A stretch of DNA of 45,987 nucleotides, from IMG/VR virus record IMGVR_UViG_3300034105_001039, positions 1 through 45,987 of that record. The stretch is one strand, 5' to 3'. The notes under the pieces are model-generated. The model had not been told where the DNA came from. It did no database searches and was given only the letters and a program-made list of their open reading frames with translations. This document shows, one piece after another, positions 3,670-18,227 of this stretch. Numbering within the stretch: position 1 is the stretch's first letter; every line of letters begins with the position of its first letter. Made by a program: the position numbers and the translations under genes. This stretch comes from a virus.

Positions 3670-3698
3670 TTGACTAGATCTCTAGAAGTTGCTATAAT
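3670..3698 (+). promoter_or_regulatory. Sigma70 promoter for rIIA-rIIB
   Basis: TTGACT (3670-3675), a 17-base spacer, TATAAT (3693-3698). One mismatch in the -35 box. Expected start near 3705, leader about 30 bases to ATG 3735. A second TTGACA at 3663-3668 is 24 bases from the -10 and is too far to be used with it. Confidence 0.87.
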
Positions 3699-3734: not shown

Positions 3735-5903
3735 ATGATTATTAACAACAGTCCGCAAAACGAAGCAGTTTTGAGTAACGTTGGTGAGATTGGCGAGTTC
3801 CGTATTCGCAACTCAGCTAAAGCGTTTAGTATTTTGAGCTCGGGCCTGTATGCCAACAAGGTCCGTGCTATCATTCGTGAATTGAGCTGTAATGCCGTAG
3901 ACAGTCATGTTGCCGCTGGCAAACAAGACACACCGTTTGATGTACATCTTCCGAACAGTTTGGAACCTTGGTTTAGTATTCGTGACTACGGTACTGGCTT
4001 GAGCCATGCACAAGTTACTAATATCTATACAACCTATTTTGAATCTACTAAAACAGACAGCAACGACTATATTGGTGCGTTAGGTTTGGGTTCAAAATCT
4101 CCTTTTAGTTATACAGATAACTTTACTGTAACCGCTATCAAAGACGGCATCAAAGGTATCTATACTGCGTTCATTAACGAATCAGGTGTACCTAGTATTG
4201 CCAAGATGATGGACGAATCTAGTGATGAACCGTCGGGTGTTGAAGTTAAGTTCTCAGTTAACGACCGCTACGACTTTGACAAATTCCGTCAAGAAGCTCG
4301 ACAGGTTTATACTTACTTTAAATTGCGTCCTGTTATTTCAGGCAACTCCGACTTTACGTTTGTTAATGTAGAGTACGAAACTGAAAATATTATTCCAGGA
4401 GTGCATTGCTACAAAAGTGCCAGCCGTAGTGTTGCCATTATGGGTAATATTGCCTATCCAATCGATGTGCCTGCAGCAGACACTAACCTAGGTGAATTGC
4501 GTGGCTTGTTGAACGGCGGATTAGAATTGCACTTTGCTATCGGTGAGCTGGACTTCCAAGCATCGCGTGAAGGCTTGTCATATATTCCTAGCACTATTGA
4601 AAGTATCAAACGAAAGTTAGAAGCCGTTAATGCACAGTTAGCCGTTCATATTGCTACAGAAGCAGATGCTATTGCTAATTTGTGGGAACGTGCAGACTTT
4701 CTTGCTAAAAAGAGAAGCAACGGACTTTGGTCTGCCGCTGTTAACAAGTATGCCATCGACACTAAATTGGCTACATTAGACACTGGTCGGTACGGTAATG
4801 CAGCTGTATTTAAATTAGGAGTTGAAGATCTTGCTAACAAATTTAATATTGCACTCAAAGGTATCCAGCGTACTCGAGGTAGCAAAACGTGTACTACACT
4901 TAAACCTAGTACAGACTACGATAACAAAAAGGACGTCAACGGACAGTGGGTCTACATTAATATGTGGAGTATCACTTGTGACGTGAATGCACATTTTGTT
5001 ATTAACGATACTAAGATTGGTGCTACAGAACGTGCTAAGTTTCACTATCGCAATCAAAAGGATCAGGCAATTCACAGTCAAAATGTGTTTGTGTTGGAGC
5101 CAGCTGATCGCACCAAGGAAATGAAAGTCAAAGCGTTCTTTAAGGCAATTTGTAATCCGCCTGTTAAAAATATTTTCAAGGCTAGTACATTAGAAAAGAA
5201 AGTACGTGCTGATAGTGGTTTAGGTAAGAACGTCACTATCATGTGTTTGCAAGAACGTGGCAACGGTGGTTACTATCGTGAGAAAGAAATGGTGTGGCGT
5301 GATGCTGGTAAGAGCGACAGCTTTGATACAGCTACTACGTACTATTACCTGCCACTGAGTGGCTTTGAAGTTATCAGCAAGTGCGGTATGAGTAATGTCA
5401 AGGAGTTTTACAACGATTTGAAAGAGTGCGGTTTGACTGGTTTGAAGACTACTATTTACGGTGTGCGTAAAGGTGATATCGACGTTATTAAAACTAAAAC
5501 AAATTGGATTAATATCGAAGACCATATTGCTAAAGAATTGGCTAAGCCAATCGATAACAAACTTGTAATGAGTTTGGTAATGCAGGCTGTTGACAGTTTC
5601 AACTTGTTGTCGTATAATAGCAATATTGTAAATGCTGTGACTAATCCTGTTAGCCCATACACTAAATTAGTAACACAATTTAAGGGGTTCGAAAAGATTC
5701 GCTACAGCGAACTAAGTTTAAAGCGACTGTGCCAACGTTACGCTACTGGTGTAACTTTTAACCCAGAAGCACAAGTCCAAAAGTTTGTTGATGAATGTGC
5801 AACCATTAGCAAACGTTATCCGTTACTGCAGTTCTTGCGTTCTGCTCCTAACGAAGATGTTGCCGAATACGTTAATTTGATTGACACACAGAAAGGTATT
5901 TAA
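3735..5903 (+). CDS. rIIA: rIIA-like protein (GHKL-fold ATPase)
   Basis: The 722-aa length is close to that of T4 RIIA (about 725). The N-terminal third shows GHKL/HSP90-type ATP-binding motifs: N-box RELSCNAVD (about 49-57), G1 box RDYGTGLS (about 83-90) and lid/G2 GALGLGSKSPF (about 114-124). The rest is poorly conserved, as is usual in this family. In T4, RIIA and RIIB are membrane-associated early proteins needed for growth in RexAB lysogens, and they affect lysis timing and recombination. The next gene is an rIIB homologue, which makes the assignment strong. Preceded by a near-consensus sigma70 promoter and an AGAAAGG ribosome binding site. How the phage uses the pair here is not visible. 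Confidence 0.9.
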   Translation: MIINNSPQNEAVLSNVGEIGEFRIRNSAKAFSILSSGLYANKVRAIIRELSCNAVDSHVAAGKQDTPFDVHLPNSLEPWFSIRDYGTGLSHAQVTNIYTTYFESTKTDSNDYIGALGLGSKSPFSYTDNFTVTAIKDGIKGIYTAFINESGVPSIAKMMDESSDEPSGVEVKFSVNDRYDFDKFRQEARQVYTYFKLRPVISGNSDFTFVNVEYETENIIPGVHCYKSASRSVAIMGNIAYPIDVPAADTNLGELRGLLNGGLELHFAIGELDFQASREGLSYIPSTIESIKRKLEAVNAQLAVHIATEADAIANLWERADFLAKKRSNGLWSAAVNKYAIDTKLATLDTGRYGNAAVFKLGVEDLANKFNIALKGIQRTRGSKTCTTLKPSTDYDNKKDVNGQWVYINMWSITCDVNAHFVINDTKIGATERAKFHYRNQKDQAIHSQNVFVLEPADRTKEMKVKAFFKAICNPPVKNIFKASTLEKKVRADSGLGKNVTIMCLQERGNGGYYREKEMVWRDAGKSDSFDTATTYYYLPLSGFEVISKCGMSNVKEFYNDLKECGLTGLKTTIYGVRKGDIDVIKTKTNWINIEDHIAKELAKPIDNKLVMSLVMQAVDSFNLLSYNSNIVNAVTNPVSPYTKLVTQFKGFEKIRYSELSLKRLCQRYATGVTFNPEAQVQKFVDECATISKRYPLLQFLRSAPNEDVAEYVNLIDTQKGI

Positions 5904-7040: not shown

Positions 7041-7284
7041 TTGGTTTAAAAAATCTGAATACAGTAACGTAGTTCCTTTTCCGGAACCTAAAGTAGTTCC
7101 CCCGCCTGCTCCTAAAGAAAAGGATCCATCTATCCATTACACTATCGGGCACACAGACGACAATCGAATAGCTTTTAGAATAGGTTATAGTACACTGACT
7201 ATGAATCATGTTGGGGTACAACAGCTTATCGATCAGCTAGAGCTTTACAAAAATCAATTATATATAGAGGAAGATAATGCCTAA
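7033..7284 (+). CDS. Hypothetical protein, 83 aa
   Basis: Starts inside the end of the Cys-rich gene and ends inside the clpP start (eight-base overlaps on both sides), so all three are translationally linked. An N-terminal aromatic/basic start (MFDWFKKSEYS) is followed by a Pro-rich linker (PFPEPKVVPPPAPKEKD). A predicted alpha/beta C-terminal part follows, including a helix (VGVQQLIDQLELYKNQLYIEE). No family recognised. The Pro-rich linker suggests two small modules. Confidence 0.68.
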   Translation: MFDWFKKSEYSNVVPFPEPKVVPPPAPKEKDPSIHYTIGHTDDNRIAFRIGYSTLTMNHVGVQQLIDQLELYKNQLYIEEDNA

Positions 7285-7897
7285 TCTAGTACCAATGGTC
7301 ATTGAGACCGAAGCAAAAGGTGAACGTGCCTATGACATTTATAGCCGGTTGCTCAAGGACCGTGTTGTTATGCTAGATACGGATGTTAACGAGCATACGT
7401 CCAGCTTGTTAGTGGCACAGTTGCTTTTTTTAGAGAGTCAAGGTAATGAAGACATTAACTTGTTTATCAATAGCCCTGGGGGCTCCGTTACTGCTGGCCT
7501 TGCTATTTACGATACCATGCAGTTTATTAGACCCGACGTCGCCACATACGTTATGGGACAAGCCTGTAGTATGGGCTCATTCCTTGCTCAAGCCGGCGCA
7601 CCTGGAAAGCGTTTTGTCCTGCCCGAAGCCCGTACAATGATTCACCGTGTTAGTTCTGGTACTCCCGGAACCCGCGGTACTGTACACGTTCAGGAACTGG
7701 AGTTTGAAGACGCACGACGTAGTTTTGAAGAATCTAAGCGTATTAACGAACGCCTAACTGAACTGTATGTCAAGCATAATACCGCTGGAAAAACCTATGC
7801 TCAACTTTATGAAGCTATGAAATTTGATACGTTTTTGAGTGCTGCAGAAGCTGTAGAGTACGGATTGGCTGATAAAGTTATTGAAAAACGCCCATAA
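7277..7897 (+). CDS. clpP: ClpP-like serine protease (peptidase S14)
   Basis: 206 aa, the normal ClpP length. The catalytic Ser98 sits in GQACSMGSFLAQAG, His123 in ARTMIHRV, and Asp184 in MKFDTFLSAAEAVEYGL, all in the canonical order. FINSPGGSVTAGLAIYDTM (about 63-81) is the family's substrate-binding strand. ClpP forms a double-ring barrel that degrades polypeptides fed by AAA+ unfoldases. A phage ClpP could replace or divert the host's degradation machine, or serve in capsid maturation. Its position next to early genes rather than capsid genes favours the first. The visible motifs are intact, so it should be active. Confidence 0.93.
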   Translation: MPNLVPMVIETEAKGERAYDIYSRLLKDRVVMLDTDVNEHTSSLLVAQLLFLESQGNEDINLFINSPGGSVTAGLAIYDTMQFIRPDVATYVMGQACSMGSFLAQAGAPGKRFVLPEARTMIHRVSSGTPGTRGTVHVQELEFEDARRSFEESKRINERLTELYVKHNTAGKTYAQLYEAMKFDTFLSAAEAVEYGLADKVIEKRP

Positions 7898-7920
7898 AGT
7901 GCGTAGATAATGGTTACCCG

Positions 7921-7957
7921 TAGTACACTATAAATACTATTGTCTAGGAGTGTACTA
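7921..7957 (+). promoter_or_regulatory. Hairpin that can hide the ribosome binding site of gene 7957
   Basis: TAGTACACT (7921-7929) and AGTGTACTA (7949-7957) are perfect 9-bp complements. The right arm overlaps the AGGAG Shine-Dalgarno (7946-7950) and the A of the start codon. The late promoter TATAAATA (7929-7936) lies at the left arm/loop junction, so RNA started there would lack the left arm. Only read-through RNA could fold the blocking hairpin, as is known for T4 gene e. Confidence 0.65.
7929..7936 (+). promoter_or_regulatory. T4-type late promoter TATAAATA
   Basis: Exact match to the T4 late promoter consensus. It is 20 bases before ATG 7957, with AGGAG in between. Expected transcription start is about 6 bases past the element, near 7942. 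Confidence 0.7.
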
Positions 7958-8685
7958 TGGCCCGTCAGGCTTTTAATTGGTCCGCATTGGATCGAAACAT
8001 GTTGTACTCAATGCTTTACGAACTCAAATCTGAGATCGTAGATAAACGTCTGACCATAAGCGAAATTACCAAACATATGAGCAAACATATAAAAGCTCAC
8101 TTGCCTGTTAGGGTAGTTAGCAGCAGATATAAACCTGTCAAAAACGGCGAACTCTGGGTAGGTGGTGCATATTATAGTGACCTTGATAGGACTGGTAAAA
8201 AACGATTTATTGAAATCGAACTGGCATTTCCTACCAATACTAACACTATGAAAACTAGTTCCTACCGATGGGACCGTATCTGTGTACTATTTGCAGATAC
8301 CATGTTGCACGAAATTATCCATACTCGTCAATATAGAGCCCGCAATTTTAAAGATATTCCGGGGTACGAAAGTACAGCCTACTATGCCAAAGATCGTAAA
8401 GAGCAAGAGTATTATGGCGATAGAGACGAGATGGGCGCCCACAGTTTCAATCTAGCGCAAGACATGATTGATAAATTTGGGTTCGATACTCGAGCTATTA
8501 AAGAATATTTGGACAGCCCAGTACCAAAACGTATTCGTCCAAACGGCTGGGGACGCTTTATGAAATCATTTGAGTACAATCATGCCCATCCAAAAGTATG
8601 CCAAATGAAGCGTAAGATCATGACTCAGCTAGAAAATGCCCATAACGGTAAACCATTTAAAACATCAAATCACTTGACATATTAG
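7957..8685 (+). CDS. Putative zinc metallopeptidase (HEIIH motif)
   Basis: 242 aa. Residues about 118-122 are HEIIH, the zincin HExxH motif, in the context TMLHEIIHTRQYR. About 30 residues later comes EQEYYGDRDEMGAHSFNLA, where E158 (or D155/D157) could be the third zinc ligand as in gluzincins/SprT-like folds. No signal peptide or membrane segment is seen. The lysine-rich C-terminus (PKVCQMKRKIMTQLE) is basic. The gene has late-gene signals (TATAAATA) and a hairpin over its ribosome binding site, while the flanking genes are early. Possible roles are a virion or head-maturation protease or a lysis factor. I know no characterised member with this sequence. Confidence 0.75.
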   Translation: MARQAFNWSALDRNMLYSMLYELKSEIVDKRLTISEITKHMSKHIKAHLPVRVVSSRYKPVKNGELWVGGAYYSDLDRTGKKRFIEIELAFPTNTNTMKTSSYRWDRICVLFADTMLHEIIHTRQYRARNFKDIPGYESTAYYAKDRKEQEYYGDRDEMGAHSFNLAQDMIDKFGFDTRAIKEYLDSPVPKRIRPNGWGRFMKSFEYNHAHPKVCQMKRKIMTQLENAHNGKPFKTSNHLTY

Positions 8686-8702
8686 TCTCTAGGCTGTATA
8701 AT
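8674..8702 (+). promoter_or_regulatory. Consensus sigma70 promoter for DNA ligase
   Basis: TTGACA (8674-8679), 17-base spacer, TATAAT (8697-8702). It overlaps the end of the metallopeptidase gene, so ligase can be made early without reading through it. Confidence 0.88.
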
Positions 8703-8735
8703 AAACAATTATACAGTTAATTATCGGAGTCAAAC

Positions 8736-10049
8736 ATGAGTCATTGTGCTAATCATATTTGGTCGCTGGAAATCCATCCTTCTCGCCTTAATAAAGAAGC
8801 TATTATTGAAGCTATTGCCAAAGAAGGAAATGACGAGTTCTTTCATGGGTGTCAGTTGGCACTAGATCCTATGGTTACATTTGGTATTAAACAAGTAAAG
8901 GAAAAACATGATCAAGACGGCCCTGGGCTACCTTGGAATACTTTTGTTAGCATCATTGGCGGTTTTCGTAATCGTACAGTCACCGGGAATGCTGCAAGAG
9001 ATACACTTGAGGAAATGATGGCATTGGCCACTAAGGCCGAATGGAATGGTTGGTATCGACGTATCCTTATTAAAGATTTACGTTGCGGTACTAGTGAAAA
9101 AACAATTAACAAGGTTGTAGAAAAAGATTATGCCGCTTATGCTATACCTATCTTCAGTTGTCAGCTTGCTCATGATAGTGCTAATCACGAAACGAAGGTC
9201 ACGGGTGAGAAAATTCTCGAAGTTAAGCTGGATGGGGTTCGAGTTATTACTATTGTATATCCTGATGGGCATGTCGATCAGTTTAGCCGTAATGGAAAAG
9301 AATTAGTGAACTTTCCACATGTCAAAGATCAAATCTCTGCAGTAGTTAAACAAGATCCGCCGCCTTATCCTGTAGTACTAGATGGTGAGATCATGAGTGG
9401 TACTTTCCAAGATTTGATGAAACAGATTCATCGCAAGAGCAGTGCCAAAGCTAATGATGCGGTACTCAACTTGTTTGACTTTATTCCGCTTGCTGACTTT
9501 GAAAAAGGCGAATGGGATAAATCTCAAACAACTCGTAGTATGATGCTCAAAGCATGGTTTGAAAAGAATGAAGCGGCCTTGCCTAACGTAACAGTCGTAG
9601 CACAAGAACTAGTTGACTTAGATTCAGATGCAGGGCAGACACGTTACAAGGAAATTAATGCGTTAGCTATTGCTGGTGGATACGAAGGAATTATGCTTAA
9701 AGATCCCGAAGCAGATTATAAGTGTAAACGCTCAGTGGCGTGGCTCAAATTAAAGCCATTCATTGAGGTAAGTCTAACTGTAGTTTCTACAGAAGAAGGC
9801 ACTGGTCGTAATGTAGGAAAAATGGGTGCATTAGTGTGCGAAGGTGTTGATGACGGTAAGGATATTCGTGTCAATGTTGGTAGTGGCTTTTCTGATCAAC
9901 AACGAGACGACTTTTGGAATTGCAGAGTTGATGGTCAAATTGTAGAAGTTCGTGCTGATGCTATTACTCAGAATCAAGATGGTACATACAGTCTGCGATT
10001 CCCACGCTTTAAATCATTCCGGGGGTTTGAACTAGGAGAGAAAATATGA
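8736..10049 (+). CDS. ATP-dependent DNA ligase
   Basis: 437 aa, single-subunit phage-size ligase. Nucleotidyltransferase motifs in order: motif I EVKLDGVR with the adenylated Lys about 164, Ia SRNGKE (about 184-189), III LDGEIM (about 215-220), IV EGIMLK (about 316-321), V WLKLKP (about 335-340). An OB-fold C-terminus follows (GKDIRVNVGSGF). It seals nicks with ATP during replication and repair, the role of T4 gp30. The N-terminal domain (about 1-155) is helical as in T4-type ligases. Preceded by its own consensus promoter and a CGGAG ribosome binding site. The stop overlaps the next ATG (ATGA). Confidence 0.95.
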   Translation: MSHCANHIWSLEIHPSRLNKEAIIEAIAKEGNDEFFHGCQLALDPMVTFGIKQVKEKHDQDGPGLPWNTFVSIIGGFRNRTVTGNAARDTLEEMMALATKAEWNGWYRRILIKDLRCGTSEKTINKVVEKDYAAYAIPIFSCQLAHDSANHETKVTGEKILEVKLDGVRVITIVYPDGHVDQFSRNGKELVNFPHVKDQISAVVKQDPPPYPVVLDGEIMSGTFQDLMKQIHRKSSAKANDAVLNLFDFIPLADFEKGEWDKSQTTRSMMLKAWFEKNEAALPNVTVVAQELVDLDSDAGQTRYKEINALAIAGGYEGIMLKDPEADYKCKRSVAWLKLKPFIEVSLTVVSTEEGTGRNVGKMGALVCEGVDDGKDIRVNVGSGFSDQQRDDFWNCRVDGQIVEVRADAITQNQDGTYSLRFPRFKSFRGFELGEKI

Positions 10050-10240: not shown

Positions 10241-10927
10241 ATGTTTGGAACAAATTATACAGGTGGGATGTCATATCGTTCCGCCACTGAGATTAACTCG
10301 GCAATGGGCAGAGTTTATGGTAACATGAGTCTAGCGGTGCTGACCAGTATGGTTGTCAGTTACTTAGTAGGCACGTCACCCGAATTACTGGCATTCTTTT
10401 TTACTGGTGTTTTAAAGTGGATTGTGATTTTTGCACCACTAGTGGCAATCCTTGCCTATAGTTTTGTCAGTGACAATTGGTCACGTAGTGGTCTACAGTT
10501 ATTCCTACACGGTTTTGCCGCATTAATGGGATTGAGTTTTGCCACTATATTTGCCGTATTCACTATGGGAAGTATTGTAAGTGCATTTATGGGTGCGGCA
10601 GTACTATTCGGAGTAATGAGTGGCTATGGATACTTTACTAAAAAGGACCTTAGTGGAGTTGGGCAATTTATGATCATTGGATTGATTGCCATTATCATTG
10701 CCAGCATCATTAATATCTTCATTGGTAGTACTGTGATGCAAATGGTGATTAGTGCCCTGGCAATTATTATCTTCCTCGGCTTAACTGCCTACGACACACA
10801 GCGTATTCGCGAAATGGTCAGTATAGAAACAGATGGGCGTGAAGAAGTTCGCGGCGCTTTGACTTTGTACATGGACTTCATTAACTTGTTTATTAACCTA
10901 TTACAGCTATTCGGCGATAGAAAATAA
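10241..10927 (+). CDS. Bax inhibitor-1/YccA family membrane protein
   Basis: 228 aa with about seven hydrophobic membrane segments starting near residue 30 (LAVLTSMVVSYLVG), then LKWIVIFAPLVAILAYSF, and so on to a C-terminal helix. The C-terminal signature is typical of the BI-1/UPF0005 family: FLGLTAYDTQRIREM followed by GALTLYMDFINLFINL. In this family, conserved Asp residues form a pH-sensitive pore switch, and bacterial members (YccA, YbhL, BsYetJ) affect calcium leak or the FtsH protease. YccA is an FtsH inhibitor-like substrate in E. coli. A phage copy could protect membrane proteins from FtsH or alter membrane ion flow before lysis; both are inference. AGGAG ribosome binding site and a TAAATA element upstream suggest late expression. 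Confidence 0.9.
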   Translation: MFGTNYTGGMSYRSATEINSAMGRVYGNMSLAVLTSMVVSYLVGTSPELLAFFFTGVLKWIVIFAPLVAILAYSFVSDNWSRSGLQLFLHGFAALMGLSFATIFAVFTMGSIVSAFMGAAVLFGVMSGYGYFTKKDLSGVGQFMIIGLIAIIIASIINIFIGSTVMQMVISALAIIIFLGLTAYDTQRIREMVSIETDGREEVRGALTLYMDFINLFINLLQLFGDRK

Positions 10928-10928
10928 A

Positions 10929-11771
10929 ATGGCACAACACTCACGATATTGGTCATGCACACCTTTTGCAGACTGGCTTCGCGGCACTAAAAAGCTCAGC
11001 GCAGGTACAGCCGAAGAGTGGGACGAGTGGACTACTGCGGCCCAAATGAAGCATAACTTTCGCTACTGGTTAGCTGAAGAAGCCCTTGGTCACATCCAGG
11101 ATTTTGTAACATGGCCTATTAGAAAGATTTACGATGCGAAATACTATATTAATAACCGTTGGGTTACTAGGACTCATGCTCTTACTGCTCATCCTAGGGA
11201 TATCAAGCCTGGTACTTGGTCAGATGTTGGGAACCGTTTTCTCCCATGTCTTTTTAATGAACTAGTTGACTTTGTGGAAATTGAATCAGCATGGAGTCAC
11301 ATTGCTTGGGGTAGTGCAGAAGATAAAGCAAAGTACAAGGCACCGTTCTGGGCTAGTGGTTGGTTCCGTTGGCGTACTTGGCGTTGTCCGCAGGCAGGTC
11401 TTGATCACTTAGATTGGGCAATGACCTTAACTAATACCGACTGGTGTAAGCCCGAAGATCCTAACTATGGTAAGCCTACTGATCAAGCACTTCGAGCCAA
11501 AGAACTCAAAGAGCTATACCTATGGTGGACTGTGACCTATCGCAATAGACCCGATCCATATGATGCTAGTGGGTGGACTGAGTACTGTGAAGCAAGTCGG
11601 CTAGCCAATGGTGGTAAGCTGAGTTGGATGAGTGCTGACAAGACTCCCGAACTTAAAAAGCAGAGTGACAAGGCTCACAAACTGCTACGGAAGATTGAAG
11701 AAGCCTACGAAAAAGAAGATGAAGCTATGACGATTCGATTGATTAAAGCTAGGAATAGTCTATGGACTTGA
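10929..11771 (+). CDS. Hypothetical Trp-rich protein, 280 aa
   Basis: Follows the BI-1-like gene by one base, probably co-translated. Very rich in Trp (RYWSCTPFADWLRG, then FWASGWFRWRTWRC). The central HIAWGSAEDKAKYKAPFW segment is followed by a helical, charged C-terminus (SDKAHKLLRKIEEAYEKEDE). No signal peptide or clear membrane segment is seen. I recognise no domain. The end overlaps the next gene by 10 bases. Confidence 0.75.
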   Translation: MAQHSRYWSCTPFADWLRGTKKLSAGTAEEWDEWTTAAQMKHNFRYWLAEEALGHIQDFVTWPIRKIYDAKYYINNRWVTRTHALTAHPRDIKPGTWSDVGNRFLPCLFNELVDFVEIESAWSHIAWGSAEDKAKYKAPFWASGWFRWRTWRCPQAGLDHLDWAMTLTNTDWCKPEDPNYGKPTDQALRAKELKELYLWWTVTYRNRPDPYDASGWTEYCEASRLANGGKLSWMSADKTPELKKQSDKAHKLLRKIEEAYEKEDEAMTIRLIKARNSLWT

Positions 11772-12121
11772 CATTACAAATTCCCGCAGAAGGTATAATG
11801 AAAACAAACGATTGGGGAGACTCAAAAGTTTATCGAATTGCCTGCGGGTGCGGTGACGAGGATCATAATCATAATATGTGGGTAGAAGCAGATGATCATG
11901 CTATCGTTGTTACTATCTATACAACTGGCAAGACCAATTGGTGGAGTAAAACTCGCTGGTATCATATTTGGACTCTACTTACTAAGGGCTATATCGATAC
12001 TGAGTCAAGTGTACATTTAACTCGTCAACAGGCTGTTAACTACGCCAATACGTTAACCAGTGCCATAGAAGATGTAGAACAATTTAGAAAAGATCGCCAA
12101 ACGGTGTCAACTAAGCTGTAA
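11762..12121 (+). CDS. Hypothetical protein, 119 aa
   Basis: The start at 11762 overlaps the previous gene. A second ATG at 11798 (preceded by GAAGG) would give a 107-aa form, MKTNDWGDSKVYRIACGCG, and is at least as good. ACGCGDEDHNHNMWVEADDH holds two Cys and several His/Asp that could bind a metal. The rest alternates beta strands with a C-terminal helix (ALTSAIEDVEQFRKDRQ). No family recognised. Confidence 0.68.
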   Translation: MDLTLQIPAEGIMKTNDWGDSKVYRIACGCGDEDHNHNMWVEADDHAIVVTIYTTGKTNWWSKTRWYHIWTLLTKGYIDTESSVHLTRQQAVNYANTLTSAIEDVEQFRKDRQTVSTKL

Positions 12122-12137
12122 GCTAAGGCGTTATATA

Positions 12138-12163
12138 TATGTAGGGATAACAATTCTTACATA
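12138..12163 (+). other. Stem-loop in leader of gene 12181
   Basis: TATGTAGG and CTTACATA pair (one G-U) around a 10-base loop, 18 bases before ATG 12181. It lacks a U-tract, so it may be a 5' RNA stabiliser or operator rather than a terminator. A TATATATA stretch just before it could be a weak promoter. Confidence 0.3.
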
Positions 12164-12180
12164 ACCAAAAAGGAAATATT

Positions 12181-12384
12181 ATGAAATTGATCGCAACTTT
12201 AATCGCAACAATGTTTGCCGCAACTGTATTCGCTGCTGAGCCAGCCAAGGCACCATCAACTCCTGCTTCAGCACCGGCTAAAGCTGAAGTTAAGAAGGAC
12301 GAGAAAAAGCCTGCAAAAAGTGACGCTGCAAAGAAAGACGCACCTAAAGCAGACGCAAAAGCCGCTACTACTCCAGCAAAGTAA
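12181..12384 (+). CDS. Small exported Ala/Lys/Pro-rich protein, 67 aa
   Basis: A clean Sec signal peptide is visible (MKLIATLIATMFAATVFAA, cleavage after AxA near residue 19), followed by a low-complexity mature part of Ala, Lys, Pro and Asp (APAKAEVKKDEKKPAKSDA). AAGGAAA ribosome binding site upstream. Similar small Ala/Lys-rich periplasmic proteins occur in proteobacteria, so a host origin is possible. It is followed by a strong terminator at 12401. A related exported protein lies at 12607, so this is a pair. A role at the envelope (buffering, coating, or lysis aid) is possible but not shown. Confidence 0.8.
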   Translation: MKLIATLIATMFAATVFAAEPAKAPSTPASAPAKAEVKKDEKKPAKSDAAKKDAPKADAKAATTPAK

Positions 12385-12385
12385 G

Positions 12386-12559
12386 TTTGACCTAGACGAC
12401 AGTGACCTCATAATAGACGATGAGGTCACTTTTGGTCGTAATCGAAAAGCTGGCGAGTTTGGTAAGATAGTTGATGAAGAACTATCGGACTATATAAAGT
12501 TTCGATTATGGCTAGCTAGACAACGTGCTATGGCGGCATACAGAGAAAAGTGGGCATGA
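12386..12559 (+). pseudogene. Protein-like reading frame without a start codon (57 codons)
   Basis: The frame +1 to the preceding gene reads FDLDDSDLIIDDEVTFGRNR, then GEFGKIVDEELSDYIKFR and LWLARQRAMAAYREKW before a TGA. Its composition looks like a real helical protein end. There is no ATG, GTG or TTG in frame after 12384. The open frame continues upstream only through the signal-peptide gene in an unlikely Leu/Gln/Arg-rich reading. It may be a decayed gene whose front was replaced by the exported-protein gene, or be reached by frameshifting or a rare start. Confidence 0.4.
12401..12433 (+). terminator. Intrinsic terminator after gene 12181
   Basis: AGTGACCTCAT (12401-12411) and ATGAGGTCACT (12420-12430) form an 11-bp perfect stem with an 8-base loop, followed by TTT. 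The U-tract is short. It lies inside the startless reading frame 12386-12559. Confidence 0.6.
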
Positions 12560-12575
12560 CTCACTTTTCTTTTTT
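12544..12575 (+). terminator. Intrinsic terminator before late gene 12607
   Basis: AGAAAAGTG (12544-12552) pairs with CACTTTTCT (12562-12570), followed by TTTTT. It separates the upstream unit from the late promoter at 12577. Confidence 0.75.
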
Positions 12576-12576
12576 G

Positions 12577-12584
12577 GATAAATA
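12577..12584 (+). promoter_or_regulatory. Late promoter-like GATAAATA
   Basis: Lies directly after a terminator U-tract, 22 bases before ATG 12607 with AAGGAG in between. Confidence 0.6.
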
Positions 12585-12606
12585 TTTGATTAGCAAGGAG
12601 ATATTA

Positions 12607-12849
12607 ATGAAACTAATTACAGCTCTAATTTTAACATTAAGTTTTGGATTGGCTTATGCCAATGATAATAAAACTATCGACGCTAACGGGAAAAAAATCG
12701 AAGCCCGTGTGCCAAAATCAGCAAAGATTGATTGTAAAGATAAAGCTAATGCAGAAAAAACTGAGTGCAAAAAGGCAAGTAAAGAAATGCCAAAAGTTGA
12801 GAAACCAAAAGAAACAGCACCAGCAGACGCTAAACCAGCTAAAAAGTAA
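12607..12849 (+). CDS. Small exported Lys-rich protein, 80 aa
   Basis: I chose ATG 12607 rather than an upstream in-frame GTG at 12550, because AAGGAG precedes it and the protein then begins with a Sec signal peptide (MKLITALILTLSFGLAYA, cleavage near residue 18). The mature part contains two Cys (IDCKDKANAEKTECKKA) that could form a disulphide, then a Pro/Lys/Ala tail (KETAPADAKPAKK). The signal peptide and tail resemble gene 12181, so the two may be diverged duplicates. It has its own late-type promoter and terminator, i.e. a single-gene late unit. Function unknown. Confidence 0.82.
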   Translation: MKLITALILTLSFGLAYANDNKTIDANGKKIEARVPKSAKIDCKDKANAEKTECKKASKEMPKVEKPKETAPADAKPAKK

Positions 12850-12857
12850 TAATTTGG

Positions 12858-12900
12858 CCCACCCCGCTGATGTCATAGACTTACGGGTGGGTTTTCTTTT
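12858..12900 (+). terminator. Intrinsic terminator after gene 12607
   Basis: CCCACCC (12858-12864) pairs with GGGTGGG (12885-12891), followed by TTTTCTTTT. GC-rich stem with a clear U-tract, the strongest terminator in this part. Confidence 0.8.
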
Positions 12901-12913
12901 GGCTATTTAATGC

Positions 12914-12942
12914 TTGACTTTTATGTGAGATGACTATATAAT
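12914..12942 (+). promoter_or_regulatory. Sigma70 promoter for gene 12974
   Basis: TTGACT (12914-12919), 17-base spacer, TATAAT (12937-12942), immediately after the terminator at 12858-12900. Leader about 25 bases. Confidence 0.87.
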
Positions 12943-12973
12943 AGTTGTATTGTTAAACACAACGGAGTGAAAA

Positions 12974-14185
12974 ATGGCAACAGTAGCAGGCGTAAAAATT
13001 AAACCCAAGGCAAAAAAAGAATCTAAGCGTATCACCAGTGTTACTATTCGCCAGAATGCGAAGAAGGATCACAGTCCAGTTTGGGAAGGCACTGAAACGC
13101 TTGACGCCGCACAATTTTTACGTCACTGGCATCGTGCTATGGATTACTATCGCCTCGACGGTGATAGCAAATCATTCAAACCTGCTGTTCTTAAATGGAT
13201 GGCTACTATTGGTTGCACGAAAGAAGACATTGCTGCATTTAAGAAAACCAAAGACAATCGATGCTCCACTACTATGGGGTCTATTGCTAGTTGCTTACTG
13301 AGAGGTATGCCAGCTGTACGTGAGGATTTCAACGATGGTCGCGATACGGCAAAGTGGTTACTTGCAGCCATTAGTAAAGTAGTTGAAGAAGGCAAAAACG
13401 ATATCGATGCAGATGAAGTTATAGAAGTTAAGTCTACAGTAGTGCAACCAACGATTCAAGAACGGGTACGTGATGCTGCAATGCGTATGACTGAAGAGAT
13501 TGAAGAAGCTATCGATAGCTTCCAAACAGATCCAGAAAACTTTGATCCAAAGGCATTTAAGATGCTTAACTTGCTCAAAGGTAAAGAAGTTAAGGCAGCT
13601 CATGCACGTTTAATTAAAGGTTACTATGAACGCGATTTAGCTGAACTTACAGAACTTGCTAGCGGCAATGCAGATGAGCAATTGAAAGAAGGCTACAGCC
13701 ATCGTTCAAAGAAGCAGATTAAGAACTTGATTGCGTTCTATCAAGAAATTATGAGTGCTTGTGATATGCTTGCACAAGAAGCTAAGGTCAATCGTGCGCC
13801 ACGTGCTAAGAAGTCAGTACCTGCTGAAAAGTTGGTTGCTAAATTGAAGTTCATGAAGACTAATGAGCCTCTCAAACTAGTAAGTGTTAATCCAGTTGAT
13901 ATCATCGGTGCAGGTGAACTGTGGATCTATAACACTAAGAGTCGTAAGCTAGGCAAGTATGTGGCCGCTGAGTTCCAGACGCTCGGTGTCAAAGGTACTA
14001 GTCTTACCGGGTTTGATGAGCATAAAAGTATCTGCAAGACACTCCGTAAGCCGGAAGATAAATTGAAAGAGTTTAAGGCAGCTGGCAAGATTGCACTGCG
14101 TAAATTCTTAGACGATATTAATGCAACTGATACTAAAATGAACGGTCGCATTAACGAAGAAATTATTTTGCTCAAAGTAGCCTGA
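12974..14185 (+). CDS. Hypothetical protein, 403 aa
   Basis: A strong early-type promoter and GGAGTG ribosome binding site precede it. The N-terminus is very basic (AGVKIKPKAKKESKRITSV). The middle is helical and acidic (MRMTEEIEEAIDSFQ), and a basic Ala/Pro/Lys linker (KVNRAPRAKKSVPAEK) separates a C-terminal globular part (GAGELWIYNTKSRKLG, then GTSLTGFDEHKSI). The helical core plus basic ends suggest binding to nucleic acid, which is inference. I do not recognise a family. As a single-gene early unit beside replication and repair genes, a DNA-metabolism role would fit. Confidence 0.8.
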   Translation: MATVAGVKIKPKAKKESKRITSVTIRQNAKKDHSPVWEGTETLDAAQFLRHWHRAMDYYRLDGDSKSFKPAVLKWMATIGCTKEDIAAFKKTKDNRCSTTMGSIASCLLRGMPAVREDFNDGRDTAKWLLAAISKVVEEGKNDIDADEVIEVKSTVVQPTIQERVRDAAMRMTEEIEEAIDSFQTDPENFDPKAFKMLNLLKGKEVKAAHARLIKGYYERDLAELTELASGNADEQLKEGYSHRSKKQIKNLIAFYQEIMSACDMLAQEAKVNRAPRAKKSVPAEKLVAKLKFMKTNEPLKLVSVNPVDIIGAGELWIYNTKSRKLGKYVAAEFQTLGVKGTSLTGFDEHKSICKTLRKPEDKLKEFKAAGKIALRKFLDDINATDTKMNGRINEEIILLKVA

Positions 14186-14187
14186 GC

Positions 14188-14197
14188 TAAGTACTTA
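14188..14197. other. Perfect 10-bp palindrome in the gap before QueD
   Basis: TAAGTACTTA reads the same on both strands, just after the stop of the 403-aa gene. The rest of the 14186-14278 gap holds a TATATAAA stretch but no convincing -35 box and no terminator U-tract. A small regulator site is possible; chance is also possible in AT-rich DNA. Confidence 0.25.
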
Positions 14198-14278
14198 CAA
14201 GCGGACTTTAACGTCATTCATCCCGCTATATAAACTCTGCATGTCGTCAAACTTGCTACCTTACAAAGGAGACTAGAG

Positions 14279-14785
14279 ATGGCAAATCTTCAACCCGTAC
14301 AATACAAGTACACAAGCACAAAAGAATATCACGACTCATTCCCATGCGCCTACAGGCAATGGCGAGCTGATAGTCACTGTAATTTAATTCACGGTTACAG
14401 TTTTAACATGAAGTTCTACTTCGGCACTAACGACCTAGACGCTCGCAACTGGGCGGCTGACTACGGTGGCCTAAAAGAACTCAAAGGTATTTTAGAAAGT
14501 CAGTTTGATCATACACTGTTAGTAGCAGAAGATGATCCGGAGTTAGACTTTTATAAAGAAATGGAAAAGCGTAAGTTAGCCAAGCTGACTATACTACCCA
14601 AACTCGGGTGCGAAGGATTGGCAGATCAACTGTACAAATACGTTAATGGAGTTTATATTCCGGATATGTGGGGTGACGGTGAAAGCAAACGCTTATGGTG
14701 CTATCGCGTAGAAGTTAGAGAAACACAAAGCAATATGGCTTTCCGAGAAGGTCATCGCGAATGGAATGAAGACCTTTTTGCTTAA
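14279..14785 (+). CDS. QueD/6-pyruvoyl-tetrahydropterin synthase-like protein
   Basis: 168 aa with the T-fold pattern of this family: SFPCAYRQW (about 20-28), CNLIHGYSF (about 34-42), LESQFDHTLLVAEDDPEL (near 74-91) and a C-terminal RVEVRETQSN with the conserved Glu. QueD makes 6-carboxy-tetrahydropterin in the 7-deazaguanine (queuosine) pathway, and some phages use that pathway to modify DNA. The canonical zinc triad is His in FxxAH plus both His of HGH. Here I see Tyr25 at the first and Tyr40 at the third position, with only His38 kept. Activity may thus differ. AAAGGAG precedes the ATG. No queC, queE, folE or transglycosylase gene is visible in this window. Confidence 0.82.
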   Translation: MANLQPVQYKYTSTKEYHDSFPCAYRQWRADSHCNLIHGYSFNMKFYFGTNDLDARNWAADYGGLKELKGILESQFDHTLLVAEDDPELDFYKEMEKRKLAKLTILPKLGCEGLADQLYKYVNGVYIPDMWGDGESKRLWCYRVEVRETQSNMAFREGHREWNEDLFA

Positions 14786-14795
14786 TCCAAACTAG

Positions 14796-14824
14796 TTGAC
14801 CTAAATAGACATACGTGTTATAAT
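14796..14824 (+). promoter_or_regulatory. Sigma70 promoter for uvdE
   Basis: TTGACC (14796-14801), 17-base spacer, TATAAT (14819-14824). The -10 box lies in the loop of a large inverted repeat (14803-14839). Confidence 0.82.
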
Positions 14825-14843
14825 CATGTATGTCTATTTTTTT
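14803..14843 (+). terminator. 12-bp perfect inverted repeat around the uvdE -10 box; terminator or operator
   Basis: AAATAGACATAC (14803-14814) and GTATGTCTATTT (14828-14839) pair perfectly around a 13-base loop that contains TATAAT. A run of eight T (14836-14843) begins within the last bases of the right arm. For RNA coming from queD this is a plausible intrinsic terminator. For RNA polymerase starting here it is a palindromic operator spanning the spacer, -10 and start site. Confidence 0.7.
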
Positions 14844-14854
14844 GATTGCATATA

Positions 14855-15880
14855 ATGATTAAACGTATTGGATTTGCTTGTAAGTGGATTGATGATCCCA
14901 GTCAGGTCAACGGTATTAAGCCAAAAGATCCTGCTAAAATCTATAATACTGGTTCAACTACTGTTGCTTGGTTAAATAGACAAAGCAAGGATGTAGCTGT
15001 TGAGAAGTTGTGGACTCTAATGAAAAACAACATCGAATCTACTCGTTTGCTAGTCGAACGTGTAGGAGCACTAGATGAAATTTTTAGAATGGTACGACTC
15101 AGCAGCGATATACTTCCTGTATATACTCAGCGTGACTGGAGCTGGTTTTGGCGGGATAGCGATGTTAGAACCTATGCAGAAAGAGAATTTAGAAAAGTGG
15201 GAGATTTGGCTCGCCAGATGGGTGTTAGGCTTAGTTTTCATCCTGGCCAATTTACTGTGTTGGCTAGCGATAACTCGGATATCGTAGATCGTTCAATAGA
15301 GGAGTTTGAATATCATGCAGATATGGTCAGGTTCATGGGCTACGGTAAATCATTTCAGGACTTTAAAATCAATGTCCACATCTCGGGTCGAGCCGGTCCC
15401 CAAGGTATTCGCTCTGCCCACACGAGACTTACCCCCGAAGCAAGAAATTGCATCACAATTGAAAACGAAGAAAACTCCTGGGGTTTAGATGATTGCCTTA
15501 GTATTTCTGATATTATCCCTATTGTGCTTGATGTACATCATCATTGGATTAGGGAAGGAGAATACATCCAAAGTACTGACCGGCGAGTGCGGTCGGTTGT
15601 GGACAGTTGGCGTGGTGTGCGTCCTACTATGCATTACTCCCTATCTAGAGAAGATTATCTTGTCGGACACGATGCAGACATTATGCCAAATTATCAAGCT
15701 CTGTTAGAGTCCGGTCATAAAAAACAAAAACTTAGGGCTCATAGTGATTTTTATTGGAATCATGAAACAAATAAATGGGCTCTATCCTTTTTAGATCAGT
15801 TTGATATTATGTGCGAATCAAAAGGTAAAAATTTAGCTAGTCGAGAACTGCTTAAATATATAGACTATGACACAAATTAA
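14855..15880 (+). CDS. uvsE: UV damage endonuclease (UvdE/UvsE family)
   Basis: The frame is open back to a TTG at 14846, but ATG 14855 gives the usual MIKRIGFACKW start and 341 aa. Neither start has a good Shine-Dalgarno. Family motifs are all present: RLSSDILPVYTQ, RLSFHPGQFTVLAS, INVHISGRAG, TIENEENSWGL, VLDVHHHWI, MHYSLSRED and RAHSDFYWN. The His/Glu/Asp residues in these build the three-metal centre of a TIM barrel that nicks DNA 5' to UV photoproducts. It starts an alternative excision repair pathway, playing the part that DenV plays in T4. Promoter at 14796-14824. Its last bases overlap the 2OG oxygenase gene by 14. Confidence 0.93.
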   Translation: MIKRIGFACKWIDDPSQVNGIKPKDPAKIYNTGSTTVAWLNRQSKDVAVEKLWTLMKNNIESTRLLVERVGALDEIFRMVRLSSDILPVYTQRDWSWFWRDSDVRTYAEREFRKVGDLARQMGVRLSFHPGQFTVLASDNSDIVDRSIEEFEYHADMVRFMGYGKSFQDFKINVHISGRAGPQGIRSAHTRLTPEARNCITIENEENSWGLDDCLSISDIIPIVLDVHHHWIREGEYIQSTDRRVRSVVDSWRGVRPTMHYSLSREDYLVGHDADIMPNYQALLESGHKKQKLRAHSDFYWNHETNKWALSFLDQFDIMCESKGKNLASRELLKYIDYDTN

Positions 15881-16682
15881 AACTAGAACACTTGAACATG
15901 AATTTCCAAAAGAGCTAGAACCATACAAGGGTTTAATTTATTGCCCTTTAGATTTGCCAGAGCCTCCTGAGGTTGATTTAGACCAACTAATTGATTATCT
16001 AGCCATGCGGGATCAAAGAGACAAAGGTACTCCTGCTGGATCAGTAAATGGAGCTGCTGGAGTAATTCCGCTTGATAGTCCGTATTTACGATACACCGCC
16101 AGCTGGAGTAAAGAAAAGGATAGATATCCTTGGAGATTAATTCACATACTGAGATCAGATTTAGAAGACGGTGGCCAAGAATACTTTAACGAATTTAAAG
16201 AATTATTTCCACAAATAGCTGATTATGTTTTAAAATTACCTGTAGAAAAAATATTCACATTTAGTCTGCTAAATCAAAAACCCGACACAGATGTTGGAGC
16301 ACACAGTGATCCAGATTTATGGTTTGGAATAAGATTTTATCTTGTAAACAGGAGCCCGGCAAAATTATTCTTTAAAAAGGCACTAGCACCTACACAAAAA
16401 AGATTAATGAATTTAGTGCAAACACCCGAGGGCATTAGACAAATACCGTGGGATCAAGTGATACAAGATGAAAAAGTTTATGCACAGTATCCACAAAGTA
16501 GGTTTCCGTTTCATTTAACCTGCACTCATGCTGTACACGGAGTTGATACAGTTCCGGTCGATGACGAAGCATCAAGAGTTACTGGATTTGTAATTTGTAA
16601 GGTTAACCCTGTAGAGTATGCTAAACTGTTAGAAAGAAGTTTAGAAAAATACGGGGACTATGCCGTATGGTGGGACAGATAA
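15867..16682 (+). CDS. Aspartyl/asparaginyl hydroxylase-like 2OG-Fe(II) oxygenase
   Basis: 271 aa. The metal-binding facial triad is visible as HSD (H146, D148 in DVGAHSDPDLW) and a distal His in CTHAVHGVD (about H224). FGIRFYLVNRSPAKLFF lies between as the conserved strand, and R237 or R156 is a candidate for binding 2-oxoglutarate. This is the double-stranded beta-helix pattern of the Asp/Asn beta-hydroxylase (AspH) family, which hydroxylates protein side chains using Fe(II), O2 and 2-oxoglutarate. The N-terminal 120 residues are a separate helical part. The ATG lies inside the end of uvsE, so both are on one early transcript. The substrate is unknown. The stop lies in the terminator at 16678-16704. 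Confidence 0.82.
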   Translation: MTQIKTRTLEHEFPKELEPYKGLIYCPLDLPEPPEVDLDQLIDYLAMRDQRDKGTPAGSVNGAAGVIPLDSPYLRYTASWSKEKDRYPWRLIHILRSDLEDGGQEYFNEFKELFPQIADYVLKLPVEKIFTFSLLNQKPDTDVGAHSDPDLWFGIRFYLVNRSPAKLFFKKALAPTQKRLMNLVQTPEGIRQIPWDQVIQDEKVYAQYPQSRFPFHLTCTHAVHGVDTVPVDDEASRVTGFVICKVNPVEYAKLLERSLEKYGDYAVWWDR

Positions 16683-16704
16683 AAGGGCACAAAGCCCTTT
16701 TATC
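16678..16704. terminator. Bidirectional intrinsic terminator
   Basis: GATAAAAGGGC (16678-16688) and GCCCTTTTATC (16694-16704) form an 11-bp perfect stem with a 5-base loop. A/T-rich tracts on both sides give a U-run in either direction. It holds the stop codons of both converging genes, 15867-16682 (+) and 16703-16948 (-). Confidence 0.9.
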
Positions 16705-16948
16705 ATTTTGTTTTACGTGGCTTTTTTACAGCTGGTCTTGGGCCGCTTGCCTTCTTAGCACGTGGCTTCTTAGATGGGGCAGCTTCAGCTACTGGAGCTG
16801 GCTCAGCAATAGTTACGACCGGTGCTTCTACTACAGTTACAGCTGGCACTTCAATAACTGGAGATACGGGGGTATCAATCTTATAAGGTACCTCTGGGGC
16901 AGCTTCGGGCTTTTTGCCTGTAAAAAACTCTTTAATTGCGTTGAACAT
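16703..16948 (-). CDS. Small Pro/Val/Ala-rich protein with basic tail, 81 aa
   Basis: The minus-strand gene is supported by a near-perfect AAGGAGGA ribosome binding site before its ATG, a TATAAATA late promoter 20 bases upstream, and a shared terminator at its end. The product has three parts: an amphipathic start (MFNAIKEFFTGKK), a Pro/Val/Ala/Glu stretch (IEVPAVTVVEAPVVTIAEPA), and a Lys/Arg/Pro tail (SKKPRAKKASGPRPAVKKPR) like histone H1 or bacterial HMG/H1-like tails. It may coat DNA or bind anionic surfaces. As a strong single-gene late unit it should be abundant. No family recognised beyond composition. Confidence 0.82.
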   Translation of the reverse strand: MFNAIKEFFTGKKPEAAPEVPYKIDTPVSPVIEVPAVTVVEAPVVTIAEPAPVAEAAPSKKPRAKKASGPRPAVKKPRKTK

Positions 16949-16968
16949 AATGTTCCTCCTTGAGCTTT

Positions 16969-16976
16969 TATTTATA
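16969..16976 (-). promoter_or_regulatory. Late promoter TATAAATA (minus strand)
   Basis: Exact T4 late consensus on the minus strand, 20 bases before the ATG of the basic protein gene, with AAGGAGGA between. It touches the plus-strand element at 16977. Confidence 0.72.
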
Positions 16977-16984
16977 GCTAAATA
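16977..16984 (+). promoter_or_regulatory. Late promoter-like GCTAAATA (plus strand)
   Basis: Back-to-back with the minus-strand element. It ends only four bases before the SOD ATG, so RNA started at the usual distance would be leaderless. Confidence 0.45.
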
Positions 16985-16988
16985 CAGT

Positions 16989-17549
16989 ATGCATCAAGAA
17001 ATATTAAAATGGCAACAGATTGTAGAAGGTAAAACAGAAACACTTTCTTTAGAATCACTACCTTACGGCAAAAGTGACCTAGCACCGTCCATTAGTAAAA
17101 ATACCATTGATTATCACTATGCTGAACTGGCACAGGGCTATGTAACACGTTTCAACAAGGGTGAAGGCGATAAGGACTTCAATCGAGCGGGTGCGTTTTT
17201 GCACAATACTCTGTTCCCGCAATACCAAAAACCCACTACTAAGAATGTTCCAACCGGACCTTCATCGGAATTTATTGTAAAACATTTTAAAACTTACGAT
17301 AAATTTAAAGAAGAATTTACCAAAGTAGCCATGGCCATACAGGGTAGTGGATGGGCATACTTGGCTAAGAACGGCAAAATAAAAACCATTGTAAACCACG
17401 AAATAAAAGAAGATATTGTATTATTAATCGACTGGTGGGAACATGCGTGGGCTCTTGACTATCAAAGTAACAAGGCCAAGTACTTAGAAAATCAATGGAA
17501 GATTATCAACTGGAATGTGATCAGTTCTAGAGTTGGTCTAGGGTCTTAA
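16989..17549 (+). CDS. Superoxide dismutase, Fe/Mn family
   Basis: From ATG 16989 the product is 186 aa. The frame is open upstream, but only through the divergent promoter. Family landmarks are LPYGKSDLAPSIS near the N-terminus, DYHYAELAQGYV, FNRAGAFLHNTLF, GSGWAYLAKNGK and the hallmark DWWEHAWALDYQ. The four metal ligands are all present: H43, H72, D148 and H152. The enzyme converts superoxide to peroxide and oxygen. No export signal is seen, so it should act in the cytoplasm. It has no Shine-Dalgarno upstream. Phage-borne SODs are unusual; this one sits near an Fe-S carrier and an iron oxygenase, suggesting redox control during infection. Confidence 0.92.
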   Translation: MHQEILKWQQIVEGKTETLSLESLPYGKSDLAPSISKNTIDYHYAELAQGYVTRFNKGEGDKDFNRAGAFLHNTLFPQYQKPTTKNVPTGPSSEFIVKHFKTYDKFKEEFTKVAMAIQGSGWAYLAKNGKIKTIVNHEIKEDIVLLIDWWEHAWALDYQSNKAKYLENQWKIINWNVISSRVGLGS

Positions 17550-17859
17550 GACTACTCACTGGCATATCCCAAATTTTTCTTGCTTCAACCCCCTTGCTCT
17601 GAGCAAATTTCTTAACATCACAATCACCACACACGTGATAAAAGTTGTTGTTTAATCGTTTGGGATCAATGTTGCCTTTATCCCTGTTGAATATTCCTTT
17701 GCAACAGTCACATCTAAAAACAATCACAGTCTTTTTACGATAATAAACATGCACCTTACCGTGCTTGCTGGTACGATAGTGCTGGGTTAGTCGAAATTCT
17801 GATCCAATATACATAACTGTATTTACATTAAGGTTATAAAAACTTTCGATAAATATCAT
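17527..17859 (-). CDS. Cys-rich protein (zinc-binding-like), minus strand
   Basis: 110 aa from the first ATG (17859), or 95 aa from the ATG at 17814 ([14 protein letters not shown]), which I favour because a TAAATA element ends five bases before it. Neither start has a Shine-Dalgarno. [18 protein letters not shown] followed by FYHVCGDCD gives CxCC...CxxC, a likely zinc site like those of HNH-type or small treble-clef proteins. The N-terminal half is a beta-rich basic segment ([17 protein letters not shown]). The C-terminus ([18 protein letters not shown]) overlaps the SOD 3' end by 23 bases on the opposite strand. I see no HNH catalytic triad. Function unknown, possibly nucleic-acid binding. 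Confidence 0.72.
17820..17827 (-). promoter_or_regulatory. Late promoter-like TGTAAATA (minus strand)
   Basis: Five bases upstream of the internal ATG (17814) of the Cys-rich gene. Arrangement TAAATACAGTTATG is nearly identical to TAAATACAGTATG at the SOD start. Confidence 0.4.
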
Positions 17860-17864
17860 ATCGA
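17846..17864 (+). promoter_or_regulatory. Late promoter GATAAATA inside a short inverted repeat
   Basis: GATAAATA (17848-17855) lies 18 bases before ATG 17874. TCGATA (17846-17851) and TATCGA (17859-17864) pair, and the right arm abuts the GAGGG ribosome binding site, a smaller version of the arrangement at 7921-7957. Confidence 0.5.
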
Positions 17865-17873
17865 GGGTTAAAA

Positions 17874-18227
17874 ATGATCACAATTTCACAATCAGCAAGA
17901 ACAAAAATTAAAGATTTACTATGCGAAGAAGGCAATCCAAAACTAGCATTACGCACCTTTGTGCAAGGTGGTGGCTGTAGCGGAATGAGCTACGGGTTTA
18001 CATTTGACGAAGAAATCAACGAAGACGACTTTGAAATTCCATTAGACGAATTTCGAGTGCTGGTAGACAGCATGAGTATGCAGTATCTTACAGGTGCAGA
18101 AATAGACTATAAAGAAGACCTAAATGGAAGTACATTTAGTATAAACAATCCAAATGCACAAACCAGTTGCGGGTGCGGAAGTAGCTTTTCGGTTGCAGAT
18201 GATCATTTTGACCACCTAGGGGAATAA
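17874..18227 (+). CDS. A-type Fe-S cluster carrier (IscA/ErpA/HesB-like)
   Basis: 117 aa, the usual length. The three conserved Cys are present: C35 in [14 protein letters not shown], and C99 and C101 in [11 protein letters not shown]. These bind iron or a 2Fe-2S/4Fe-4S cluster for delivery to apo-proteins. The start [16 protein letters not shown] matches the family N-terminus. GAGGG ribosome binding site and a TAAATA late element upstream. It directly precedes, by one base, the giant structural gene, so it is translated with the tail cassette. Related proteins are known in cyanophages and other T4-like phages. It might mature host or phage Fe-S enzymes, or supply a virion component. Confidence 0.93.

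Follow-up and report, generated by a model that had tools for sequence, protein, structure and literature searches.

The leader and its neighbourhood

The window analysed here is the whole 45,987-nt stretch, which comes from a T4-related group of uncultured phages, and all coordinates refer to its + strand. A putative zinc metallopeptidase gene lies between a clpP-like gene and a DNA ligase gene, with rIIA, rIIB and clpP upstream on the same strand. The features needed below are as follows:

3670-3698, +, sigma-70 promoter TTGACT-17-TATAAT before rIIA, a possible source of read-through
5590-5618, +, sigma-70 promoter, perfect match, within rIIA towards its 3′ end, a possible source of read-through
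7277-7897, +, clpP-like gene (PF00574, 3e-61), upstream neighbour in the early cassette
7895-7911, +, conserved block TAAAGTRCGYANATAAY, upstream of the hairpin
7918-7929, +, hairpin left arm (perfect core 7921-7929), found solely in RNA that starts upstream
7929-7936, +, late promoter box TATAAATA, T4-type, predicted to occupy -13 to -6
7942, +, predicted late transcript start, placed by box spacing
7946-7950, +, Shine-Dalgarno AGGAG, of which the right arm takes in the final two bases
7949-7960, +, hairpin right arm (perfect core 7949-7957), covering the start codon
7957-8685, +, putative zinc metallopeptidase gene, 242 aa, HExxH
8674-8702, +, sigma-70 promoter TTGACA-17-TATAAT, perfect, serving the DNA ligase gene (8736-10049)

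Between the upstream promoters and the metallopeptidase gene, a terminator scan returned one weak match only, within clpP. The clpP stop codon lies 20 nt 5′ of the left arm, a gap from which a ribosome ending clpP probably would not open the hairpin.

The HExxH residues H118, E119 and H122 are invariant across 36 homologues. The protein had no match in Pfam, PHROG or the PDB sequences, none in two fold searches (models with pLDDT 73 and 85) and none in a search of 50,697 phage records; since no known family or fold matched, "metallopeptidase" is a motif-based guess. A weak match to the DNA-protein-crosslink repair protease 6mdx (E 0.25) came from the poorer model, was absent with the better one and was discarded. 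In the literature beyond the T4 reviews, we found no description of the gene or of its leader.

Around this locus, the -10 box of the ligase promoter sits within a perfect inverted repeat of its own, CTGTATAAT/ATTATACAG (8694-8716); a similar repeat is present in contigs G001 and G005 and not clearly so in G012 and G019. The window also carries a set of host-like genes (10241-17549 and 39027-41603), namely a Bax1-I family membrane protein, a QueD-like synthase, UvdE, an Fe/Mn superoxide dismutase and, among the tail genes, a large subtilase-domain protein.

Late promoter signals

Late boxes of T4 lie at -13 to -6 (PMC1524935), and it is by this spacing that the start in the window was placed at 7942. 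The late promoter is credible because TAAATA is the most enriched hexamer 5′ of predicted genes (108 occurrences vs 8.3 expected, a 13-fold enrichment, over nine contigs and 922 genes), with a peak at -30 to -22 from start codons. The full box TATAAATA occurs twice in the window, where 5.0 copies were expected, and both copies are 28 nt 5′ of a start codon. TATAAT peaks at about -36 from starts in contigs of the phage group, mostly with a TTGACA-like sequence 17 nt upstream. Judged by these signals, the group has two predicted promoter classes, TTGACA-17-TATAAT and TAAATA, which is the layout expected of a T4-like phage. Homologues of the late sigma factor gp55, the sliding clamp gp45 and the prohead protease gp21 were not found in 19 related fragments of 46-111 kb, which are incomplete and all surround one locus; the T4 control was positive. 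A capsid search in the related fragments gave no match either.

Folding of the leader RNA

The hairpin sequence, 7918-7960, reads CCGTAGTACACTATAAATACTATTGTCTAGGAGTGTACTATGG. Its cores TAGTACACT (7921-7929) and AGTGTACTA (7949-7957) are exact inverse complements, giving 9 bp around a 19-nt loop, and in RNAfold the stem grows to 12 bp (7918-7929 with 7949-7960, one G-U pair). The first-pass annotation had proposed a perfect 9-bp inverted repeat that straddles TATAAATA and the predicted start, which is what we find. It had also counted AGGAG and the ATG among what the repeat straddles, and here the picture is more nuanced: only the end of the Shine-Dalgarno sequence (7949-7950) falls in the 9-bp arm, its first three bases sitting at the loop base, and the ATG (7957-7959) is fully paired only in the 12-bp stem. 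Its expectation that a long RNA would fold and that an RNA started near 7942 would be open agrees with our predictions: the fold of 7915-7965 beats 198 of 200 shuffles (z -2.9), and no stable structure is predicted for RNA 7942-7980.

Opening the initiation region is predicted to cost 12.6 kcal/mol in the long RNA and 5.9 in the late RNA of the window; T4 gene e, as a control under the same treatment, gave 16.2 and 2.0 kcal/mol, which predicts a weaker switch in the window than in T4 e. As only two Shine-Dalgarno bases lie in the perfect stem, repression in the window may also be partial. Across relatives, the median long-minus-late opening cost was 10.1 kcal/mol for 69 hairpin leaders vs 1.8 for 72 other late-box genes.

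A bare 9-bp repeat is not rare in 46 kb. With loops of 3-25 nt, the window holds 22 perfect 9-bp repeats (overlapping positions counted separately), and shuffled windows (n = 30) hold a mean of 4.7, ranging from 1 to 15. The case therefore rests on placement and evolution. Rfam had no match at the leader.

Evolution of the arms

We collected relatives from IMG/VR, 80 of them close, plus a further set at 45-55% identity. The 113 loci gave 75 distinct leaders; counts below include related sequences and ignore kinship. In 66 of the 75, pairing of the left arm with the initiation region reaches p ≤ 0.01 when tested with shuffled left arms; the mean energy was -18.6 kcal/mol with own arms and -10.2 with arms swapped between 14 representatives. 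Within the canonical class, 95.3% of cells are paired in the true register and 18-56% in slid registers. Double changes occur in the same class: TAGTAAACT/AGTTTACTA in L186, with C-G replaced by A-U in L186 and L187, and TAGTATACT/AGTATACTA in L181 and L202, with C-G replaced by U-A. Together with the pairing of 66 of the 75 leaders and the preference described next, these support compensatory evolution of the arms.

That preference lies in the cells of the nine-pair core that are not Watson-Crick: over 32 distinct canonical arm pairs, 32 are G-U and 4 are A-C, which fits one strand of RNA and not the symmetry of DNA. This bears on the possibility that the repeat is a DNA operator at which a dimeric protein represses or activates the late promoter enclosed by its two halves. 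In its favour, the repeat is a perfect palindrome centred on a promoter, and I-TevI is a repressor of its own late promoter by way of an operator that overlaps it (PMC2988022). However, apart from the 32:4 ratio, arms switch among relatives to unrelated sequences and even to other registers, and copies of the gene that have moved retain the promoter and lose the repeat. We regard an operator as very unlikely.

The unrelated arms are of several kinds. In the L020 group they are GGTACAC-CCTAGTA with TACTAGG-A-GTGTACC and in the L030 group ACTCCTAGTATA with TATACTAGGAGT, and in both the start is likewise closed. Further unrelated stems occur in L184, L193 and L176, in L207 at p 0.018 and, more weakly, in L079 (p 0.034). 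Even where the arms are wholly different, the right arm still holds the initiation region and the late box lies in or beside the loop.

Could the repeat be a product of chance, and the conservation of its left arm a sign of extended promoter sequence upstream of TATAAATA? Nine-base repeats do occur at several sites of the window and the canonical left arm is almost constant, but other late boxes of the group lack this upstream sequence, and the alternative leaders keep the box while their different left arms still match their own right arms. We also looked for TAGTACAC upstream of many late boxes lacking a matching right arm, and did not see it. Chance is therefore an extremely improbable explanation.

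Conservation of a stem alone does not discriminate between a timing hairpin and another RNA element, such as one for processing or stability, or a site for a translational repressor protein, to which late-promoter timing would be secondary. Such a role might also find room for the conserved block TAAAGTRCGYANATAAY. On the other hand, the loop is variable outside the box, and the placement of initiation region and box outlasts complete replacement of the arms; we consider another RNA role very unlikely.

The TAAAGTRCGYANATAAY block stops some 45 nt short of the start codon and is found at up to 3 mismatches in 57 of the 75 leaders. It persists when the upstream gene differs, is missing from moved copies and, in the L012-L018 clade, gives way to an intrinsic terminator, CCCGTAAAACACGGGTTTTTT. 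The end of the block that resembles a -10 box often reads ATATAAC, which matches sigma-70 poorly. As a shared promoter or general motif the block was rejected, its exact matches in the contigs examined being only at the metallopeptidase leader.

Dependence on gene neighbourhood

We scored a hairpin as present at p ≤ 0.02 or at an energy of -13 kcal/mol or lower. Of the 68 distinct leaders with clpP upstream or ligase downstream, 67 have it; the lone exception, L079, forms a stem of its own (p 0.034). Of the six where the gene has been relocated, one has it (Fisher p 2e-6, kinship ignored). Moved copies, that is L048/L063/L078 (behind an opposite-strand gene), L033, L177 and L190, keep the late box. 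The sole hairpin outside the cassette, in L071, has its left partner at the end of the upstream gene, where translating ribosomes may open the pairing. One further leader without a hairpin, L203, lies on a short contig with neither neighbour found and was left unscored for neighbourhood. From these counts, the hairpin tracks the early cassette and not the gene or its promoter.

The first-pass annotation had held that homologues keeping the promoter and losing the repeat would refute a switch. Formally, L033, L048/L063/L078, L177, L190 and L203 are such homologues; however, all but L203 lie outside the clpP-ligase cassette, so they fit the switch model and do not refute it. Two sets of relatives do count against the model. 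In L010, L016, L068, L077 and L201 a reverse-strand gene of about 240-340 codons lies between clpP and the leader and the hairpin stays, and in the clade L012-L018 it is kept despite the upstream terminator.

A probable translational timing switch and its T4 precedents

In T4, hairpins of this type precede late genes that also lie on long polycistronic RNAs, the precedents being e, soc, 49, I-TevI and kin (PMC3014915, PMC2988022); the predicted setting of the metallopeptidase gene matches this. By analogy, read-through RNA from the upstream early promoters would carry both arms and fold; with the start codon and the last Shine-Dalgarno bases hidden, no metallopeptidase would be made from early polycistronic RNA. 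At late times, polymerase recruited to TATAAATA would start near 7942, inside the loop; the resulting RNA would be without the left arm, its ribosome-binding site would be open and the protein could be made.

In our view the leader is highly likely to be a switch for the timing of translation, like that of T4 gene e. What we observed to this end is the repeat, the box, pairing that is both conserved and re-invented, and dependence on neighbourhood; from these we infer that the late promoter is used, that early RNA reads through and that translation is repressed. The proposal of a T4 lysozyme-style switch is thus upheld by anatomy, the T4 gene e control, compensatory evolution and neighbourhood; the two promoter classes of the group and the unrelated hairpins on tail-fibre genes behind an early gene, described below, also speak for it. 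The leader shares three features with T4 e-type hairpins, and no feature tested speaks against membership: in RNA begun upstream a stable predicted stem covers the ribosome-binding site, the start codon or both; the predicted start at 7942 is downstream of the left arm and would yield RNA that lacks it; and the pairing is kept up in evolution. As for a T4-type late promoter, a TATAAATA-like box stands at a fixed short distance from many start codons. As far as sequence can tell, the likeness is well supported.

As in T4 gene e, TATAAATA is in the loop region, with the left arm upstream and the right arm over Shine-Dalgarno and start, and the long RNA is predicted to be closed and the late RNA open. 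Unlike in T4 gene e, the product is a putative zincin and not a lysozyme, the arm sequence is different, and the right arm covers only the end of the Shine-Dalgarno sequence, whereas that of T4 covers all of it. Alike in genomic setting are I-TevI, I-TevII, I-TevIII, segB and Aeh1 mobE, each a late gene lying within an early or middle transcription unit, with the ribosome site closed in the long RNA and a late promoter inside (PMC2988022). These are homing endonucleases, whereas the gene here, which sits between clpP and ligase, is a conserved gene of phages and not known to be mobile. The T4 soc and gene 49 leaders likewise sequester the initiation region in the long RNA (PMC3014915), in front of other genes. 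The metallopeptidase leader is very probably the known T4 mechanism (e, soc, 49, I-TevI) on a different gene.

The first-pass annotation had gone on to suggest that early expression of the protease is harmful. This was only a guess and it does not follow, because deletion of the comparable I-TevI hairpin left the viability of T4 unreduced (PMC2988022, PMC3014915).

If correct, this reading carries a mechanism known from T4 textbooks over to a group of uncultured phages and a new gene. The relatives amount to a natural experiment, with about 75 distinct co-changed arm variants, unrelated versions and relocated hairpin-free copies, and it is now testable whether such hairpins arise from the place of a late gene in an early operon and not from the gene's own sequence. 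The layout may also offer a simple signature for spotting late genes hidden in the early regions of metagenomic phages.

Other predicted starts inside hairpins

In contigs G005, G016 and G021, a long gene, tail-fibre-like or unassigned (the family-library scan left out the G005 protein), comes straight after the early phrog_11903 gene and has its late box within a strong hairpin whose sequence is unrelated to that of the metallopeptidase leader. Such late boxes in strong unrelated hairpins, before long genes directly behind phrog_11903, lie at L115:9374-9403, L137:10411-10440 and L145:19786-19815, the genes being tail-fibre-like in L115 and L137. In G012 and G020, an intrinsic terminator lies between phrog_11903 and the next gene; the arm pairing is weaker, and longer-range folding still closes the start. 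We tentatively suggest, at slightly less than even chances, a general and repeatedly re-invented rule within this phage group: a late gene entering an early unit would gain an unrelated start-closing hairpin and give it up when it moves out. Independent instances would be the metallopeptidase gene and the tail-fibre genes behind phrog_11903.

A weaker version of the metallopeptidase layout precedes the Fe-S carrier-like gene (PF01521) of the window, where GATAAATA stands between CTTTCGAT and ATCGAGGG (17848-17876; p 0.005, and p 0.015 in G001). In contig G009 (6881-7477 and 21270-21437; L119, L120), late boxes lie in the loops of terminator-like hairpins, GCCTC...GAGGCTTTTT, whose right arm contains a Shine-Dalgarno-like GGAGG. 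Finally, the sigma-70 -10 box (TATAAT) of the UvdE-like gene in the window lies in the loop of a hairpin resembling an intrinsic terminator, AAATAGACATAC...GTATGTCTATTTTTTT (14803-14840), with a similar layout in contigs G001 and G019. RNA arriving from upstream would terminate there and RNA started inside would not, which would make this hairpin an analogue at the level of transcription.
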